52,863 nt of DNA, taken from IMG/VR virus record IMGVR_UViG_3300006929_000021, positions 1 through 52,863 of that record. One strand, given 5' to 3'. Within the stretch, counting starts at the first letter, position 1. Each line of letters starts with the position of its first letter. This DNA is from a virus. The position numbers and the translations under genes are program-made. Below are positions 3,894 to 13,052 of this stretch, piece by piece. Below the pieces are notes generated by a model. It ran no database searches and was not told the origin of the DNA. It was given only the letters and a program-made list of their open reading frames with translations.

Positions 3894-6393
3894 CTTTAGG
3901 CTCCTTTCCTTTTTCTTTTTCTGCTAATTCAGCCATAAATTTGTCTGTATCAACACCAAATTTAAATCCTTCAGCCTCTTGTTCGGCTTCAAACTTTTCT
4001 AAATCGGCTGCAAGCTTCTGTGTTTCCAAATTAACCTTGGCGGCCAACTCTTTTTCATCCATATCTATGCCTGCCACTGCTTTTTCCCGATCAAGATCAA
4101 GCTTAGCAGTATCTAATTGTTGTTTTGCTTGGTCAACTTGCTGTTTCCTTTGAACATCCATCTCACGAATATCAAGCTCACGCTCTCTTTGTTTCACAAT
4201 TGGATCTTCTTGCTGTGCTGCCATCTGCTCAGCCTGTGCTTGCTGCTGTTTCTTGCCCATCATTTGATCAGCAGCGTCGGCAATCATAACACTAAGTTGT
4301 TTTTCTATGTTCGGAGGTAGCGGTTCTCCAACTGGTGGAAGTGGTGCTCCAAGTTCTTCTTCTATCTGCCTACGGAATACAAATGCCAAGTGTTCACGAA
4401 CATGTGCATCCAACGCACCGCTTACTGCACCACCCGAAGGACTGTTCTGAACCTCCTGTGCAAGTTGCGGATCATTCTTAAGTGCCATATGAACTCGCAT
4501 ATGTGCTTCGTGATCCTGATATTCATACGCTTTAACAGGAGCAAGTGTAAGCATGTCTTGATTTTCTGTTACAGGATCTTTAGGTGGCACTTCTTCTTGG
4601 TTCGGAACCACCTTGTCAGCATTAGGTATACCTATTAGATCCATCATTTGACGATGAAGCAATGGCATATCATAAAGATTCGGAGCCTGTGCAGCCAATT
4701 GCAGTGCAGCCTGATATTGCATAATTCTTTGAGCCATGGTTGATGCATTAGGATCAGACACTGGCACAACATCTATGCGATCATCAAAGTCCTCAAGCTT
4801 AATTGCTTCACCCTCATCTGTTTCGTAGGGATAAGCGGGATCTGTATAGTCAGCAATTATTTCTGATAGTATTTTATATTCTTGCTTTAGGCTTGCATGT
4901 ATTCTCGCCTGAATAGCAGACTGCACCTTCATAGCTCTTTCCATGATTGCAAGAGTAGTTCCCACGGGAGCCTCTTGATTCATGTCTGCTACTTTAAGGT
5001 CGGCCATTGACGCAAAGCGTCTGCCTTCTTCGACGATATTACCCAGTAACTGATAAAGGACCGAACTAGGTTCCTTATAAGGAAGGAAGGTGATGTTGTC
5101 ACGAATCGCCCCGCCTGGGACATCAACGTCTCTAAACTCTCCTGGCATGATAGGCGTGTCATCGCCTTTGATTCTAAGTCCACGAGTTTTCAAACCTCCA
5201 GGTAGATTGGATAGTGTGCCCGCATCAACCAACTGTCTAAGTAAGCTGGTCGCAGATTTGGCTAATCCTCCAATCATGTGGATTAAGCCAAGGTTGTAGA
5301 ATCCGATTCCTGGAACGTAGCCGTAATGTACAAAGTGTTGTTTTTTCACTCTGTGCGGATCTTCTTCAGACCAATTCCTATAAATAGAAAGAACGGTGTC
5401 GCTGCCTTTATCAATCGTAATTACATATGGCAACGCAACCCCGTCTTCGTCCTCATATCCAGGTAAGTCTATATCGGCATGCATTTCAAGAAGTTGGTGT
5501 CGCTCATCATTTTCGTAAGACGGACGCACGCCTCCAATTTCATTGTATTTATCTGTAATAGAATTGTCTTCTATATTGGAGGGCGTTAGTTCTACATCCC
5601 GATAAAATCCACTAACCTGTAACTTTCTAATCTGATTAGTGCTACGATTCATTACGTGTGTATATCGTTCTGCATGTTGTAACTCTCCCTCATTGTACGC
5701 AACTACAAAGTCCTCAGCAGGAACGAACATAGAAGTAGGTCTGCCCAACGAAGGGTCGAAATAAATCTTACGAAATGCAGAACCAGCAAGAGGCAAACTA
5801 AAAAGTAGTTTTTCTGTTTCTGAGCGATACTCAGTCATTACCTCAATAAGTTGGTAATTTAAATATTCCTGAACACGCTTTGCTTGCTTTTCTCTTTCAG
5901 GAGTAAACTTGCCCCAAATATGAGTTTTGACTGGACCCTGTGCTGGCATAATCTCTTGAATAGTCTGGGCTTGAAATCGCACTACTGCCTCAGAAAGCAT
6001 TGGATGAAATACGCCACATGCTCCAGCCCATGGGGTTGTACGCTCTTCAATCTCCAAGCCTAACTGATCTAGCCCTTGTTCATAGCTTTGTTCCCAGTCA
6101 CCCCTGCTGGATTTATCGGATTCAAATTTTCCAACAAGTTCTGAACCAAGGCTTTGTAGTTCGCCTTCGTCTATAAAGTCAGCAAGATTGGAATCAAACG
6201 AATCCTCTTGCATCATCATATCAGCCATTGGATCAAAGTCGACCATCATGCCGCCATCATCCATTTCGACTAACAGTGATTCACCATCAGCCTCTTCTTC
6301 AGCAAGCGTCACTTCTTGGGCAATCTCTTCAGGACTTACACCAAGTTGTTCAAGCTCACTAATAATAGGTTCAATTGCTTTGTCTATCGCCAC
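3886..6393 (-). CDS. Portal protein, P22-like
   Basis: An 835-aa protein of the large P22-type portal class (P22 gp1 is about 725 aa). The core reads through segments such as TTPWAGACGVFHPMLSEAVV, a KTHIWGKFTPEREKQAKRVQ helix, FSLPLAGSAFRKIYFDP, the wing-like region GYVPGIGFYNLGLIHMIGG, and a long helical tail. The last 170 residues are Gln/Glu/Lys-rich coiled coil (MMGKKQQQAQAEQMAAQQED onward), comparable to the P22 barrel. The portal forms the dodecameric DNA channel at the unique vertex and docks the terminase. The start is a GTG at 6393. It lies just downstream of terL in the same operon. Confidence 0.88.
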   Translation of the reverse strand: MAIDKAIEPIISELEQLGVSPEEIAQEVTLAEEEADGESLLVEMDDGGMMVDFDPMADMMMQEDSFDSNLADFIDEGELQSLGSELVGKFESDKSSRGDWEQSYEQGLDQLGLEIEERTTPWAGACGVFHPMLSEAVVRFQAQTIQEIMPAQGPVKTHIWGKFTPEREKQAKRVQEYLNYQLIEVMTEYRSETEKLLFSLPLAGSAFRKIYFDPSLGRPTSMFVPAEDFVVAYNEGELQHAERYTHVMNRSTNQIRKLQVSGFYRDVELTPSNIEDNSITDKYNEIGGVRPSYENDERHQLLEMHADIDLPGYEDEDGVALPYVITIDKGSDTVLSIYRNWSEEDPHRVKKQHFVHYGYVPGIGFYNLGLIHMIGGLAKSATSLLRQLVDAGTLSNLPGGLKTRGLRIKGDDTPIMPGEFRDVDVPGGAIRDNITFLPYKEPSSVLYQLLGNIVEEGRRFASMADLKVADMNQEAPVGTTLAIMERAMKVQSAIQARIHASLKQEYKILSEIIADYTDPAYPYETDEGEAIKLEDFDDRIDVVPVSDPNASTMAQRIMQYQAALQLAAQAPNLYDMPLLHRQMMDLIGIPNADKVVPNQEEVPPKDPVTENQDMLTLAPVKAYEYQDHEAHMRVHMALKNDPQLAQEVQNSPSGGAVSGALDAHVREHLAFVFRRQIEEELGAPLPPVGEPLPPNIEKQLSVMIADAADQMMGKKQQQAQAEQMAAQQEDPIVKQRERELDIREMDVQRKQQVDQAKQQLDTAKLDLDREKAVAGIDMDEKELAAKVNLETQKLAADLEKFEAEQEAEGFKFGVDTDKFMAELAEKEKGKEPKGG

Positions 6394-6457: not shown

Positions 6458-7948
6458 TTAATAATAATCTGCTTTTCTATTTAAAAGAAACTCTTCTTCC
6501 TCTTCATCGCTTGCTATCCTTATAAATCCTCCTTGACGAAACCTTAAAAGAGCTTGCGTAGAAGAGTCAACCAAGTCGTCGTGATCACCAGTCGGAAAGG
6601 CAGCAAACTCCTCAACTACCAATTCTGCCCATCTTGTTTTTGGTGCCCACACATGCCCAGAGGAGAATAAATCTGAAATCGCATTTACTCTAGCAATTTT
6701 ATCTTTACCCCTGCTGGGTACATACTCACCCACAGGTATACCCATGCGACGCAATTCAAATATCAATGGAGTCCCTGCAGCTTTAGCTTCTACAATAAAC
6801 GCATCAGGTTCGTACTCTTTATACATTTCATAAGCACGTGCCTTAAGATCAGGAAATTCTAATCTCTCCTGAAATGCATCTAAAAGAATAATACTTGATA
6901 TATTATCTTCATCTGTAAAAACCCCCCAGGTGGTACACGCACTATAGTCAGCAGTTTCCTTTGCAAGAAATGCAGTATCCCAAGATTGAATAATAAAATC
7001 ACAAGGGGGTGGCCGTTTCTGTGTCCACTCTTTCCACCACTCCCTTTTTATAATTGCACCTTCTTCTGACGAAGGATCTTGCTGATACTGGGCACTCCAC
7101 TTACCAATAGGTAGTTCTGCCTTCAGTGCTTCTAATTGGTCGAGTGGCCAAAAGCCAGGCCACAAAGATTTGCCACTAGGAAGTATGGCAGGAAATTCTA
7201 TAACCTCCCACTCATCACCACCCCTTTGGATAGATGACTTCATAATACTTCCCGTTAAATCTTTTTTTGACCAACGGGTCATTACCAAACATATCGCACC
7301 GCCAGGCTGTAGTCTTTGGCGAGGACCAGAGGTATACCACTCATATGTTTTGTCATATACCGAAGGATCGTTTAATGCAGCTTCCTGTTCAGAATGCGGG
7401 TCATCAACAATTAAGATATCTGCACCCTTACCTGTTACGGCACCACCTACACCAATAGCGAAATATTCTCCTTGCTTATTTGTACTCCATCTTCCCGCAG
7501 CCTTAGAGTCTGTACTAAGTGCAACATCTTTAAATATTTTTTGATAATCCTCTGAGCCAACAAGGTTACGAACCTTACGACCAAAGCCTACAGCAAGCTC
7601 CGCAGTATGTGCAGTCTGAATTACTTTTTTATCAGGAAACCTTCCAAGGTACCATGCTGGAAAAAGATGAGATGCAAACTCTGACTTTGTATGACGAGGA
7701 GGCATATTTACAATTAGCCTCTTCAGGGACCCGTCTGCAATTCTATTAAACGCATCTGCCATGACCTTGTGATGGTCACCTTCAATAAAGGCGGGCCAAA
7801 CTTCTTTTACAAAAGCAAGAAAGTCTGTGTGTGCAATGGTTCTTGTTCTGGCATCTGACAGTTCATCTAATAAAATAAGAACTTCTTTTCGGGTATCAGG
7901 TGCCAGTGTATCCAGCCGTTTGGTTATTGTGGCTAAATCTAGACTCAT
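6458..7948 (-). CDS. terL: Terminase large subunit (packaging ATPase/nuclease)
   Basis: A 496-aa protein. The ATPase half has a Walker A variant NMPPRHTKSE (residues 81-90; T87/K88/S89) and Walker B ILIVDD (D182, D183). The nuclease half has the RNase H-like SWDTAF aspartate around residue 325, followed by later acidic residues (FIVEAKAAG and HDDLVDSSTQAL). These are the motifs of TerL, which pumps DNA into the prohead through the portal and cuts concatemers. It is near the start of the leftward head operon. The matching small subunit is not adjacent: it lies about 4.5 kb away at 12463-12900 and in the same orientation but outside this operon. Confidence 0.93.
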   Translation of the reverse strand: MSLDLATITKRLDTLAPDTRKEVLILLDELSDARTRTIAHTDFLAFVKEVWPAFIEGDHHKVMADAFNRIADGSLKRLIVNMPPRHTKSEFASHLFPAWYLGRFPDKKVIQTAHTAELAVGFGRKVRNLVGSEDYQKIFKDVALSTDSKAAGRWSTNKQGEYFAIGVGGAVTGKGADILIVDDPHSEQEAALNDPSVYDKTYEWYTSGPRQRLQPGGAICLVMTRWSKKDLTGSIMKSSIQRGGDEWEVIEFPAILPSGKSLWPGFWPLDQLEALKAELPIGKWSAQYQQDPSSEEGAIIKREWWKEWTQKRPPPCDFIIQSWDTAFLAKETADYSACTTWGVFTDEDNISSIILLDAFQERLEFPDLKARAYEMYKEYEPDAFIVEAKAAGTPLIFELRRMGIPVGEYVPSRGKDKIARVNAISDLFSSGHVWAPKTRWAELVVEEFAAFPTGDHDDLVDSSTQALLRFRQGGFIRIASDEEEEEFLLNRKADYY

Positions 7949-8491: not shown

Positions 8492-8711
8492 CAATTACAA
8501 GATCTTCTCGTTTACATTCAATCCATACGTGGGCACCACATGATAATGACTTTCCAGGAGAGTACACAAGTTTACTGGGTCCATTAATCTGAATTGAATC
8601 GGTGTATGTATTGTCCTTGTATGTTTTAATAGAAAACACAGGACGGGAGTCACTAGGGTTTTTTTTGTTGTATTTGATGTTGTGCTGATTTACATGTATT
8701 CGAGCCTTCAC
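8484..8711 (-). CDS. Conserved small phage protein, first gene of head operon
   Basis: A 75-aa protein beginning at a GTG at 8711 with an AGGGGAG ribosome site in the correct place. The sequence starts KARIHVNQHNIKYNKK and contains a beta-rich centre (VFSIKTYKDNTYTDSIQI) and GKSLSCGAHVWIEC. I recognise this family as very common in uncultured marine phages. Its function is not known to me. It is the promoter-proximal gene of the leftward head operon; the AT-rich region at 8712-8840 must hold or follow its promoter. Confidence 0.7.
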   Translation of the reverse strand: MKARIHVNQHNIKYNKKNPSDSRPVFSIKTYKDNTYTDSIQINGPSKLVYSPGKSLSCGAHVWIECKREDLVIDG

Positions 8712-9069
8712 AAAACACTCCCCTTAGTTAATATTATCTATTATTACCTATATAGATAATCTATACTAGGTAACTTAGACTTAAATATCTAGACTTATAA
8801 CCTAACCTAATGTTATTCTAGATAACTAAGTTAGTTATTATGGTGCCTGAGAAATGGTGTGAGAGAGAGAAGAGAGAGGTGTAAACATTAAATTTTTGCT
8901 GTAGGATGTGCAAAACAGTGTTTTATGGTATCGCCTCTCCCTACTCCTCAGCGGGGGGGACCACCCTACTGGGGTCACCAGCGAACCCAAAAAGCCCCCA
9001 AAAGCAAAAGCATGGAGCTACCCCTCCACCCCCAAAAAGCCCTCCCTCGCCCTGTTTTTTTTTCAACCC
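8712..9069. promoter_or_regulatory. Gene-free regulatory region: AT-rich block then C-rich block
   Basis: No credible gene. Bases 8725-8840 are AT-rich with many short inverted and direct elements (TAGACTTA repeated at 8776-8783 and 8790-8797; AACTAAGTTAGTT near 8825; several CTAGA/TATAGAT pieces) immediately upstream of the leftward head operon, so operator and promoter sites are expected here. A GA-rich run lies at 8859-8880. Bases 8950-9057 are C-rich on the plus strand (runs of 4-7 G or C), giving G-tracts on the minus strand. Individual promoters could not be assigned with confidence. Confidence 0.5.
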
Positions 9070-9512
9070 CCTTTCTTGCCCGATCATTCACCGACCAGTC
9101 CACTAGCACGACAACACACCTCCAACTCACCGTAGAGACAGGCGATACCATTTCTATCTATCTGTGATTTGACACCTTACTCAGCGTTAGAACACCCAAT
9201 GTTTAGCCCTTCGCCTGACTGAGCCATCCTTGATTTTAACGATGAAAAAAGATAGAAAATCTAGCCATTTTGTCTAGGCGGTGTAGCATACCTAGACAAA
9301 ATACCTAGACTGAAGCCCTAAAGGGTTTTCTATTTTGTTTCATAGTGAAAATCAAGAATAGTCAGCCGAAGGACCAAACATCGGGTGTTCTAGCGGGAGC
9401 AAGGTATAAAAATCCCAGATGGCTAGAAATAGCCTCTCCTCCTCCCCTACGACGAGTCGAAGATGTGTTGCCCCGCCAGCGGACCGTTCGGCAAATGATC
9501 GACCAAGAAAGG
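9070..9512. repeat. Very long imperfect inverted repeat (about 210-nt arms)
   Basis: The left arm 9070-9278 read on the minus strand aligns along its length with the right arm 9291-9512 read on the plus strand. The centre is perfect: ATTTTGTCTAGG (9267-9278) faces CCTAGACAAAAT (9291-9302) across a 12-nt loop. Further out, matched blocks include TTTTCTAT, AAAATCAAG, GTCAG.CGAAGG, GGGTGTTCTA, AAGGT, TAGAAAT, CTACG, TGTGTTG, AATGATCG and CAAGAAAGG. Over the outermost 66 nt I count 50 identities, 13 transitions and 3 transversions. The right arm has an extra 13-16 nt mini-hairpin (GCCCTAAAGGG). It sits between the two divergent operons. Possible roles: replication origin, paired divergent control sequences, or a folded leader RNA. 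Confidence 0.85.
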
Positions 9513-9561
9513 CAGCAGCCCCCTTTTTTTTGTATATAAGTTAATAGCTTGAATACTCCGA

Positions 9562-9590
9562 TTAAGGGATTGCAATCCTTATACTATAAT
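9562..9590 (+). promoter_or_regulatory. Candidate sigma70-type rightward promoter
   Basis: TATAAT at 9585-9590 is preceded at 17 bp by TTAAGG (9562-9567), a partial -35 match. A start near 9597 would place the structured leader 9609-9930 at the 5' end of the transcript for the 344-aa gene. The -10 is perfect but the -35 is weak, so this remains a candidate. Confidence 0.4.
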
Positions 9591-9608
9591 CCCCGTGATG
9601 GGATGATG

Positions 9609-9930
9609 ATCTCTCCTGCTAGTTCCGAGGGGTGAGGCTCACCATCTACCACGAGTGGAAAGGTCTGCCTACTAATAGAGAGGAGATCAACCCTTCAGCC
9701 TCGTGGCAGGAGCGAACGCTAGTTCACGGTTCGCCTGTAAGCACGAGCATGGCCTATCCGTGAGGACGGACGTTGGGTTGGTCTCTATTAGATCTTGGTC
9801 GACAGCAGGTTACCAATCGCCTAACAAGTTTTGTTGTACCGTGTGGTGGTCACGTTAAAACCCACCCAGGCGATCAGACCACAAGGGTCTGGCCTGTTAC
9901 CTTTGCGGGGACGAAAGGTCCCCGAAGGAG
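9609..9930 (+). ncRNA. Structured RNA leader with possible pseudoknot
   Basis: About 320 nt without an open frame but dense in complementary segments. CTCCTGC 9613-9619 pairs with GCAGGAG 9706-9712. CTAATAGAGA 9672-9681 pairs perfectly with TCTCTATTAG 9782-9791. These two stems cross, which would make a pseudoknot. Local hairpins: GGTGA/TCACC 9631-9643, CGAAC/GTTCG 9713-9733, TCCGT-GAGG-ACGGA 9757-9770, CAGACC/GGTCTG 9875-9891, and CGGGGAC-GAAAG-GTCCCCG 9906-9924. The direct repeat GCTAGTTC occurs at 9618 and 9718. It ends at the ribosome site of the 344-aa gene. It matches no RNA class I know. A cis-regulatory leader or a separate small RNA are both possible. Confidence 0.55.
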
Positions 9931-9938
9931 TAGTAACC

Positions 9939-10973
9939 ATGGCTAATACAGCCAAAGTAGGGTCCATCAGTTTCGACAATTACGTTAAAACTGTGGGAAG
10001 AAGCGTTGGACAGGCCGCTGCGGTCGAGGCTAAAACCGAGACACAGGCGGGCCACGATAAGGATAAGACTGTTCTTGCTGCCTTGAAAGGGGCGAGATCG
10101 CTTTCGGCTAAGATAGCGAAAGATCCAGATCGGAAAAACGCAGGAATCAACAGAGCACTCTGTGATTTCTACGATATCCAACGTAACACTGCTAGGGAAA
10201 CTAGGTACGCTGACTACGATGAGGAGTTGAGGCTTCACAACCTCAGCATTCCTGAAGTAGTCGAGGAGTTTGTATCTGGCAACACCAACGTTCTTAGGGG
10301 TGAGCAAGTTTTCAACTTGGCTAACACAACTAAGAAGGTTGCATCGGAAGCTAGGTCTAATGCTCAGTCAGCTGTTGATAGTGACGAGAGTCCAGTGATC
10401 CACTTCCATGAAGATGCGAAGCAGCAGACCCTTACAACCTATACTAGATACACGCCAGCACCATTGGCGAGTAAGAAGGAGTATGGGGCCTCTGGGAGAA
10501 ACCGTGTAAACACATACGTCGACCTGTATACGATGTGTGGATTCTTTCTTGATCCTAAGAGAGACACGGATGAGGTTGATTTCCTACTGGAACAGCTTAA
10601 TCCTGCTCTGACTTCTAAGAAGTCGAACAAGATGTTGCCTGTATCAGACCGTATGCAGGTTCTTATGAACCGTATGCGTGAAGTCAAGATCACGAAGAGT
10701 ACTATGCCGATAGCCACAGTCCTTGACGGTGAAGGTCATCGACACGTGCAGAATGCATACGAGAATCTTTCAGATTCTCAGCTGAAAGCATTGGGATTAT
10801 CCGCAAAGGTAGAGGAGGTTCCTTTGAACCAACTCCATTCGGACTTCTTGCAGGAGAAGAAGGAGAAGGCTCAAAGGGTGAAGCTTCTAACTCGTAATAT
10901 CAAGGTACTTGATATTGAATGCGGGTTAGAGGAACTACACATAGTCAAAGCTAACAGATACGCAAAGGATTAA
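9939..10973 (+). CDS. 344-aa protein of unknown function, first rightward gene
   Basis: Start chosen at the ATG at 9939, which has GAAGGAG 8 nt upstream; a longer in-frame extension to 9831 runs through the structured leader and is unlikely. The 344-aa product is hydrophilic and charged, with no membrane segment, Walker motif, zinc cluster or obvious nuclease signature. It has a helical N-terminal half, an Asn/Arg/Thr-rich middle (NRVNTYVDLYTMCGFFLDP) and a Lys/Glu/Leu-rich C-terminal half. It is the largest early protein of this transcription unit and the only one behind the complex leader, so it may be abundantly or conditionally made. I do not recognise the family. Confidence 0.75.
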   Translation: MANTAKVGSISFDNYVKTVGRSVGQAAAVEAKTETQAGHDKDKTVLAALKGARSLSAKIAKDPDRKNAGINRALCDFYDIQRNTARETRYADYDEELRLHNLSIPEVVEEFVSGNTNVLRGEQVFNLANTTKKVASEARSNAQSAVDSDESPVIHFHEDAKQQTLTTYTRYTPAPLASKKEYGASGRNRVNTYVDLYTMCGFFLDPKRDTDEVDFLLEQLNPALTSKKSNKMLPVSDRMQVLMNRMREVKITKSTMPIATVLDGEGHRHVQNAYENLSDSQLKALGLSAKVEEVPLNQLHSDFLQEKKEKAQRVKLLTRNIKVLDIECGLEELHIVKANRYAKD

Positions 10974-11012
10974 GTCATCCTGGGTTAGCGTAGACTAAAG
11001 TTCCCTTCAACC

Positions 11013-11044
11013 GAGGGAGTGGGGACTCACCGCCCTGCTCCCTC
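11013..11044 (+). promoter_or_regulatory. Hairpin directly upstream of a ribosome site
   Basis: GAGGGAG (11013-11019) pairs with CTCCCTC (11038-11044), with an inner GGG/CCC pair possible. The stem ends 4 nt before AAGGAG of the next gene. No T-run follows, so it is more likely to tune translation or mRNA stability than to terminate. The same layout (hairpin, then ribosome site) is seen upstream of the 344-aa gene and in the palindrome family at 13-17 kb. Confidence 0.5.
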
Positions 11045-11059
11045 ACAAAGGAGTTAGTT

Positions 11060-11266
11060 ATGGCTACTGCAAATATAGTCAAAGAGTGTCCTTGGTGTGA
11101 AACGTCACATGTTGTTTGTGGCATTCCCATGAAGGAGTTTATCGACTACAAAACTCGCCCAGAAGCACTCATACAGGATGTTCTTCCTAGTCTAAGTGCG
11201 GATGCTCGTGAGGTAGTTAAGACGGGTATATGTCCCCCGTGTTGGGAGGATCACTTCAATGCATGA
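11060..11266 (+). CDS. Small zinc-binding protein with two CxxC pairs
   Basis: A 68-aa protein with CPWC near the N-terminus (residues 10-13) and CPPC near the C-terminus (residues 58-61), which together would make a four-cysteine zinc site around a short helical region. The ATG at 11060 has AAGGAG upstream. It is followed without a gap by a short overlapping gene. Such proteins are common in phage early regions; partner and function are unknown. Confidence 0.65.
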   Translation: MATANIVKECPWCETSHVVCGIPMKEFIDYKTRPEALIQDVLPSLSADAREVVKTGICPPCWEDHFNA

Positions 11267-12462: not shown

Positions 12463-12900
12463 TTACGCCTCTGCTCCGAATAAGATACCCAGCTTCTCAA
12501 GCAACTCCTTCTCTACATCTTCGGGTGACCTATGCTCAAACGTGACATGGGTACTCTCGTCGAACAACCCACCCGTTTTACCTAGTAGCTCAAGTGCCCT
12601 CACTCTGGTCGCTGCTGGGTTCCTATCATTGATGGCCTCATCCTGCAACTTCTGCATAATCCAGTCGTTGCTTAGCTTTTGATGGGCCTTGTGTGCAGAC
12701 CTAGTCTGTACCTTCAGCGATTCAATTGCCTCTTTCACCTTCGGATTCTTTGCGAGTGCAGATGCTTCATTGTTCACGACGTTGTCGCTCATCTTCGCAG
12801 TGTTGTACGCCTTACGATAGGCCTCACTAAAGCTATCGCCTTCAGCTACAAAGCCTGCAAAAGCAGACTGTTTCGGGGTCATGGTATCGCCATTAGACAT
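12463..12900 (-). CDS. terS: Terminase small subunit
   Basis: Start taken at the ATG at 12900, giving 145 aa; the frame can be extended to a TTG at 12936. The product has the Terminase_2-type layout: TPKQSAFAGFVAEGDSFSEA (helix-turn-helix DNA-binding start), AYRKAYNTAKMSDNVVNNEA, KVKEAIESL, then a helical C-terminal half. TerS binds the packaging site and feeds DNA to TerL. It is unusual here: it stands alone, leftward, between two rightward units, 4.5 kb from terL, and is bracketed by palindromes and by TTTAGCACTTA/TTCAGCACTTA. The ribosome site is weak. Confidence 0.82.
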   Translation of the reverse strand: MSNGDTMTPKQSAFAGFVAEGDSFSEAYRKAYNTAKMSDNVVNNEASALAKNPKVKEAIESLKVQTRSAHKAHQKLSNDWIMQKLQDEAINDRNPAATRVRALELLGKTGGLFDESTHVTFEHRSPEDVEKELLEKLGILFGAEA

Positions 12901-13052
12901 AATAGATAGGGTACCATGACGAATTTCGTATGTCAAGGGAGAAAAATTTTCCCCTACGGCTGAACCTTAAGGGTAGCGTTCAGCACTTACATATAAAAGA
13001 GAAATTGGTTAAATTTATATATTGAGAAAAACACATTGGTCCCATACCAAGA
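12901..13052. promoter_or_regulatory. Divergent gap between terS and rightward early genes
   Basis: No gene. It holds palindrome copy 3, TTCAGCACTTA at 12979-12989 (partner of TTTAGCACTTA left of terS), an AT-rich stretch with TATAAA (about 12992-12998) and TTAAATTTATATAT (about 13012-13025). A rightward early promoter is expected here; the TATAAA and TATATT elements are candidate -10 sites without a clear -35. Confidence 0.4.
12937..12954. repeat. Palindrome family copy 3, right of terS
   Basis: GGGAG A5 T4 CCCC, slightly imperfect. It abuts the TTG end of the terS frame and would be in the terS 5' leader if transcription starts further right. Confidence 0.8.

Follow-up and report, generated by a model that had tools for sequence, protein, structure and literature searches.

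An inverted duplication of 443 bases (9070-9512) sits between the early and the packaging genes of an uncultured phage, which raises the question of what kind of element it is; an earlier note had considered an origin, a doubled divergent control region and a giant hairpin leader RNA. The analyzed DNA, hereafter the window, is the whole 52.9-kb virus record (IMG/VR IMGVR_UViG_3300006929_000021, 52,863 nt), in which the head operon, encoding the major head protein, a GroES-like protein, the portal and the terminase large subunit (TerL), is read leftward, and the early genes are read rightward.

Genomic setting of the palindrome

The palindrome lies ~359 nt from the start of the leftward ORF at 8711 and ~426 nt from the rightward gene at ~9939, so that it does stand between the two divergent blocks, as had been noted before. 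The features of the region are as follows:

6458-7948, minus strand: TerL, the anchor for finding relatives
8887-8924, minus strand: box AAAACACTGTTTTGCACATCC (8904-8924) with TTTAAT (8887-8892), a conserved sequence
8925-9069, minus strand: tail of the island beyond the hairpin, containing a C-rich motif shared by the clade, CCCCAGTA...CCCCCC (~8953-8976), from alignments
9070-9278, minus strand: hairpin 3' arm in the minus-strand reading (formerly the left arm), from repeat finder, fold and arm alignments
9279-9290, minus strand: apical loop of 12 nt, TATGCTACACCG on the minus strand
9291-9512, minus strand: hairpin 5' arm in the minus-strand reading (formerly the right arm), from repeat finder, fold and arm alignments
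9312-9329, minus strand: CCCTTTAGGG, a small side stem of the 5' arm close to the hairpin apex, from fold and alignment
9524-9540, minus strand: candidate -10 element and start, CTTATATACAAAAAAAAG, at the hairpin 5' base, predicted from the alignment with contig L004
9585-9590, plus strand: TATAAT, seen in the sequence, a candidate -10 element of the rightward early operon
9939-10973, plus strand: divergent gene encoding 344 aa (MANTAKVGS...), without a convincing family match
12463-12936, minus strand: TerS

The closest TerL proteins (55-59% identical) belong to the Pelagibacter phages HTVC027P and HTVC023P and to the phages 023Pt_psg01 and DSL-LC04, and no named phage sharing the DNA of the window was found. 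Where the window has the divergent gene, relatives carry fast-evolving genes of 264-367 aa, which lie beyond the noncoding island described below. No protein partner for the hairpin was recognized, the divergent gene being without a convincing family match. The box at 8887-8924 is probably the promoter or operator of the leftward head operon.

Geometry, folding and authenticity

The arms match over their whole length with exactly the coordinates given earlier, and the perfect 12-bp core (ATTTTGTCTAGG/CCTAGACAAAAT) and the loop can be read directly in the sequence. The repeat finder returned arm pieces of 76% (9070-9135/9447-9512), 86% (9185-9220/9360-9395), 85% (9226-9259/9326-9359) and 89% identity (9260-9278/9291-9309), while the element as a whole matches its own inverse at 69-71% (E 2e-52 to 3e-53). 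The comparison of the arms that the earlier note had called for thus gives E ~1e-52, which excludes a chance match, and no other inverted self-match with E<1e-6 spans less than 1.5 kb in the window.

As RNA, the minus strand of 9060-9520 folds at -269.7 kcal/mol vs. -136 for shuffles (z -21.2), and the plus strand at -192.0 vs. -102 kcal/mol (z -16.8); when both strands were folded, as had likewise been proposed, 0 shuffles reached the energy of the palindrome on either of them. The longest unbroken helices are 29 and 36 pairs. Helices of this length are long enough to be bound by duplex-RNA proteins such as RNase III.

An assembly artefact is ruled out by independent contigs. L088, from another metagenome, carries the same hairpin and is 99.86% identical to the window over 12.1 kb, and a diverged hairpin of 498 nt, ~67% identical to that of the window, is present in L004 and L005, which come from two additional metagenomes. 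L004 and L005 are nearly identical to each other and hence count as one independent orthologue of this very hairpin. The loop and its flanking CTAGG/CCTAG are identical in L004, and the side stem of L004 stands in the same place but is longer and different. Searches for further close orthologues with the loop pattern and the divergent gene returned only L004, L005, L088 and the same contigs, and a scan of genome contigs gave two distant TerL fragments.

Several known kinds of element were considered and rejected. An antisense RNA to the phage's own genes is not indicated, as the arms match nothing else within the window. No Rfam covariance model matches the window at its curated score and none matches at E<=1 in 8600-11100; across 16 relatives, Rfam matches were limited to one tRNA, and no tRNA genes were found in the window. 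A protelomerase-type hairpin site appears unlikely, no protelomerase having been seen among the scanned ORFs.

The two arms evolve together

Arms, loop and side stem are shared by the window and L004, hence the duplication predates their split; if it were a passive relic, the similarity of the two arms in one genome should not exceed that of one and the same arm compared across genomes. A four-arm joint alignment of the window and L004 (200 shared columns) gives identities of 75.5% and 77.5% for the two arms of one genome, of 74.0% and 62.0% for the same arm across genomes, and of 62.5-63.5% for opposite arms across genomes. With G-U pairs allowed, 174 and 179 columns pair within the hairpins vs. 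155 and 149 in arm-swapped chimeras, and the arm-swapped hairpins fold at -183 and -182 kcal/mol vs. -264 and -315 kcal/mol for the native ones, a loss of 80-130 kcal/mol. Double changes that retain pairing occupy 28 columns, and a separate sequence-only alignment contains 17 double compensations vs. 8.0 +/- 2.4 in shuffles. The search for homologues and covariation suggested in the earlier note has thus revealed compensatory changes between the window and its one independent orthologue.

Two indels are matched on both arms, one of ~11-13 nt and one of 4 nt. Their lengths are not divisible by three, an argument against coding, and they point to copying at the DNA level, which is able to keep arms alike without selection; matched indels together with multi-base compensations are the described signature of template switching (PMC8794818). 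Part of the paired evolution can therefore come from arm-to-arm copying, and taken alone it is no proof of function.

Mismatches are biased toward one strand

Copying from arm to arm restores Watson-Crick pairs and is blind to strand, therefore G-U and A-C oppositions are expected in equal numbers if nothing else acts. In strand-neutral arm alignments, G-U and A-C were counted on the minus strand at opposed arm positions, and the ratio is 25:5 in the window and 27:12 in L004 (52:17 summed). Over 17 clade islands it is 137:54, and 84:40 when the window, L004 and L172 are left out. The control counts are 225:215 in the rest of the window (172:148 in the minus-coding parts alone) and 20:24 in the long palindromes of unrelated phages (L108 and L118). 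In a more distant terminase group, which also has a long hairpin, the bias is present in some members (28:7 in L071, 20:6 in L075 and 18:12 in L070), and the consensus of this group contains 8 doubly varying pairs. The five very close pairs provide counter-evidence from few changes, with single changes being G-U and A-C at 10:10.

By these counts, it is the folding of the minus strand that is of consequence. Since this strand is rich in G+T, the excess of G-U is in part confounded with its composition. DNA energy parameters also favor the minus strand (z -21.8 vs. -13.0), hence a single-stranded-DNA structure would give the same bias.

A folded island throughout the clade

Downstream of the hairpin, the clade shares a minus-strand box, AAAACAsTGTTTTGCACATCC, followed in several members by a TATAAT-like word ~18 nt further on. 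A search with the box recruited further contigs, a few low-GC matches being unrelated. At 15 of 17 loci, the window included, the noncoding island upstream of the box (500 nt, or 398 nt in L012) folds with z -4 to -15 on the minus-equivalent strand, vs. a mean z of -1.1 for control stretches ~1 kb downstream of the box; the exceptions are L006 and L184, which fold weakly just upstream of it. The island sequence is hypervariable and its turnover almost complete: L179, L174 and L177 are near-identical after the box, yet the island region of L179 is only ~47% identical to that of L174 and L177. Its shape varies as well, from the one long hairpin of the window to branched domains elsewhere. Of the relatives that have names, HTVC027P (z -5) and 023Pt_psg01 (z -8, one gap) have somewhat folded gaps with no clear strand preference and the gaps of DSL-LC04 and HTVC023P show little folding, hence the strongly folded islands belong to the nearer, uncultured clade. 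With paired change, strand-biased mismatches and a clade-wide folded island, the element differs from a fossil duplication.

Other structured elements

Further elements were seen in the window. The AT-rich stretch 8712-8850, before the first head gene, contains repeated TCTAG/TATAGAT words, is partly conserved in the clade and could be an operator array or origin iterons. The word GGCGATACCAT occurs three times (0.48 expected, up to one mismatch), namely in the island tail (8925-8935), in inverse orientation in the hairpin 3' arm (9141-9151) and near the TerS start (12881-12891); the former two sites are both kept in L004 and could form a pairing alternative to the hairpin. A second, branched RNA-like module at 9672-9798, with the stems CAACCC/GGGTTG and CTCGTG/CACGAG, is found again at 4260-4360 of L013 (91% identical over 58 nt, with the double compensatory change CAACTC/GAGTTG) but is absent from the nearer relative L004, which suggests that phages exchange such modules. 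Ahead of the rightward gene, the leader (9793-9960) is 90% identical to L004, far more conserved than the hairpin, and contains possible stems, so that the early operon may have a structured 5' leader.

In other contigs, L013 has two related hairpins of ~130 nt (4050-4175 and 5116-5252), of which one adjoins the divergent gene and the other the box, an apparent duplication of an island hairpin. L171 carries a tRNA gene (2414-2486) just past the conserved box, which recalls the tRNA neighborhood of the GOLLD and ROOL RNAs. The palindromes of L108 (~669-1132) and L118 (~18-497), related contigs of 114 and 94 kb, are 464-480 bp long with GGACACTTGGACACTT at their ends and, having no strand preference, are apparently palindromes at the DNA level. 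In L153 and L136/L138, ~1-2.3 kb upstream of the phrog_8676 homologue, stretches of 312-368 bp could fold into long hairpins that share arms and exclude one another. Spans of 291-292 nt in L029, L032, L044 and L051 proved to be short stem-loop pairs ~290 nt apart and were rejected as homologues.

A proposed leftward RNA gene and its alternatives

Hairpin RNA is the best supported of the three earlier readings. We hold, with somewhat more belief than doubt, that the palindrome is a leftward noncoding RNA gene flanked by two divergent promoters, with selection acting on its fold and DNA copying between its arms possibly renewing it. Minus-strand transcription would start at the hairpin base (~9520-9530), where the candidate -10 element at 9524-9540 has the counterpart TCTATAAACAAACAAAAG in L004 and where a TATAnACAAAnAAAAG block is conserved in both; a sigma-70 scan at the hairpin base gave nothing above chance. 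The transcript would fold into one hairpin of ~190 pairs with a conserved apical loop and would end soon after 9070, ahead of the separate putative head-operon promoter at 8887-8924. A terminator-like stem with a T tract, recognized by its sequence, starts 12 nt past the hairpin 3' base in L004; no clear terminator was found in the window, which has just a weak terminator-like site. Selection on the minus-strand fold, by which G-U is tolerated and A-C is not, would maintain the stem, perhaps together with template switching that copies changes from arm to arm.

One alternative shares the hairpin and the strand: the hairpin might lie within a long 5' leader of the head operon, be read through, and protect or delay the message. 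It is on the same strand as the head operon, 359 nt upstream of its first ORF, and the fold is selected on that strand. However, a conserved promoter-like box lies between hairpin and operon, a terminator-like stem follows the hairpin in L004 (both as read from sequence), and the island varies freely while the downstream genes are conserved; we consider such a leader improbable. The earlier idea of a giant hairpin leader RNA is therefore supported as to the hairpin RNA, the G-U excess and the kept pairing agreeing with it, and less likely as to the leader, since the downstream box and the L004 stem make it look like a separate noncoding RNA. That the stem is a functionless by-product, an inverted duplication produced by template switching and kept alike by repeated copying between the arms, would account for the matched indels and multi-base compensations, but the equality of G-U and A-C that it predicts holds in the unrelated phage palindromes and not in the clade, and most clade members fold strongly at the corresponding position, which makes this reading quite improbable.

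The remaining alternatives place the function in the DNA. As single-stranded DNA, the minus strand might fold during replication or packaging and act as an origin, primase-loading site or packaging start, which is unlikely in our view. The preference of the DNA parameters for this strand fits such a structure, as do the position of the palindrome between TerS and TerL and at the GC-skew strand switch, and the adjoining AT-rich repeats. However, the minimum that the cumulative skew reaches in the first half extends broadly over 8-14 kb and the switch also tracks gene direction, the repeats fall outside the palindrome, and G-T, which is costlier in DNA than G-U is in RNA, nevertheless makes up ~13% of opposed pairs; given the many G-U pairs, an RNA structure appears favored over one of DNA. 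A doubled control region, with two mirror-image promoter/operator blocks serving the two operons, would suit the location between divergent operons, but the putative promoters of both operons (8887-8924 and 9585-9590) are outside the arms, the arms lack any other match in the window and a strand bias is not expected of duplex operators, so that this earlier suggestion is not supported and is very improbable.

For the favored noncoding RNA gene, the structured RNA might, as a guess, act on a protein through its duplex, and RNase III-type processing or decoy action may be put forward purely as hypotheses. That the island and the divergent gene next to it both change so quickly is consistent with an arms race; one specific role of this kind, a decoy of double-stranded RNA aimed at a host nuclease or defense sensor, seems unlikely, if worth naming. 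More generally, and still tentatively, for we doubt it more than we believe it, the RNA of the clade may work by being long and double-stranded and not by its sequence: each phage would have its own stem island at the terminase-side locus, rebuilt quickly by template switching under strand-specific selection, and possibly serving as a decoy or inhibitor of host RNA-binding defense or RNase III.

Comparison with known phage RNAs

Our searches of Rfam and of the literature agree with the earlier statement that no phage element of this form has been described, although phages are known to encode large structured RNAs, namely GOLLD, ROOL and the RNA of phage ICP1. GOLLD and ROOL are large, heavily folded noncoding RNAs of phages and prophages with unknown function (PMC12286853). 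The window element is likewise large, heavily folded and phage-encoded; in contrast to its single giant hairpin and sequence turnover, they have conserved sequences, multi-branched folds with pseudoknots and Rfam models. The ~800-nt noncoding transcript of the lytic phage ICP1, the most abundant phage transcript there (PMC7567579), comes from a long ORF-less stretch between gene blocks, as would be the case here; the passages on it describe no long inverted repeat, and the two are set side by side by description only. The inter-inverted-repeat (IIR) transcript of the PLE phage satellites is abundant, noncoding and bounded by inverted repeats, but it has antisense homology to the leaders of its own genes, whereas the window hairpin matches nothing else in the window (PMC7567579). 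RNA hairpins maintained by template switching (PMC8794818) resemble the element in their matched arms, multi-base compensatory changes and paired indels, yet the strand-specific G-U excess of the window also needs selection on one strand. Neither intergenic nor noncoding transcripts are mentioned in the text of the paper on the HTVC027P infection transcriptome (PMC12753301). The element would thus belong broadly to the large structured phage RNAs while falling outside all Rfam families, as a single giant hairpin at a locus that appears to keep foldedness and not sequence, pointing to a kind of noncoding phage RNA not yet described.

Implications

The known large phage RNAs are recognized by conserved sequence, and an RNA that is conserved merely as much stem in a given place escapes Rfam-style searches. 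If the proposed reading is true, others could be found by the combination of a promoter-like box that stays fixed, an island that is folded but hypervariable, and an excess of G-U over A-C on one strand. The locus would also be a natural case in which template switching and selection at the RNA level jointly maintain a hairpin of nearly 200 bp, and would give reason to look for a host factor.
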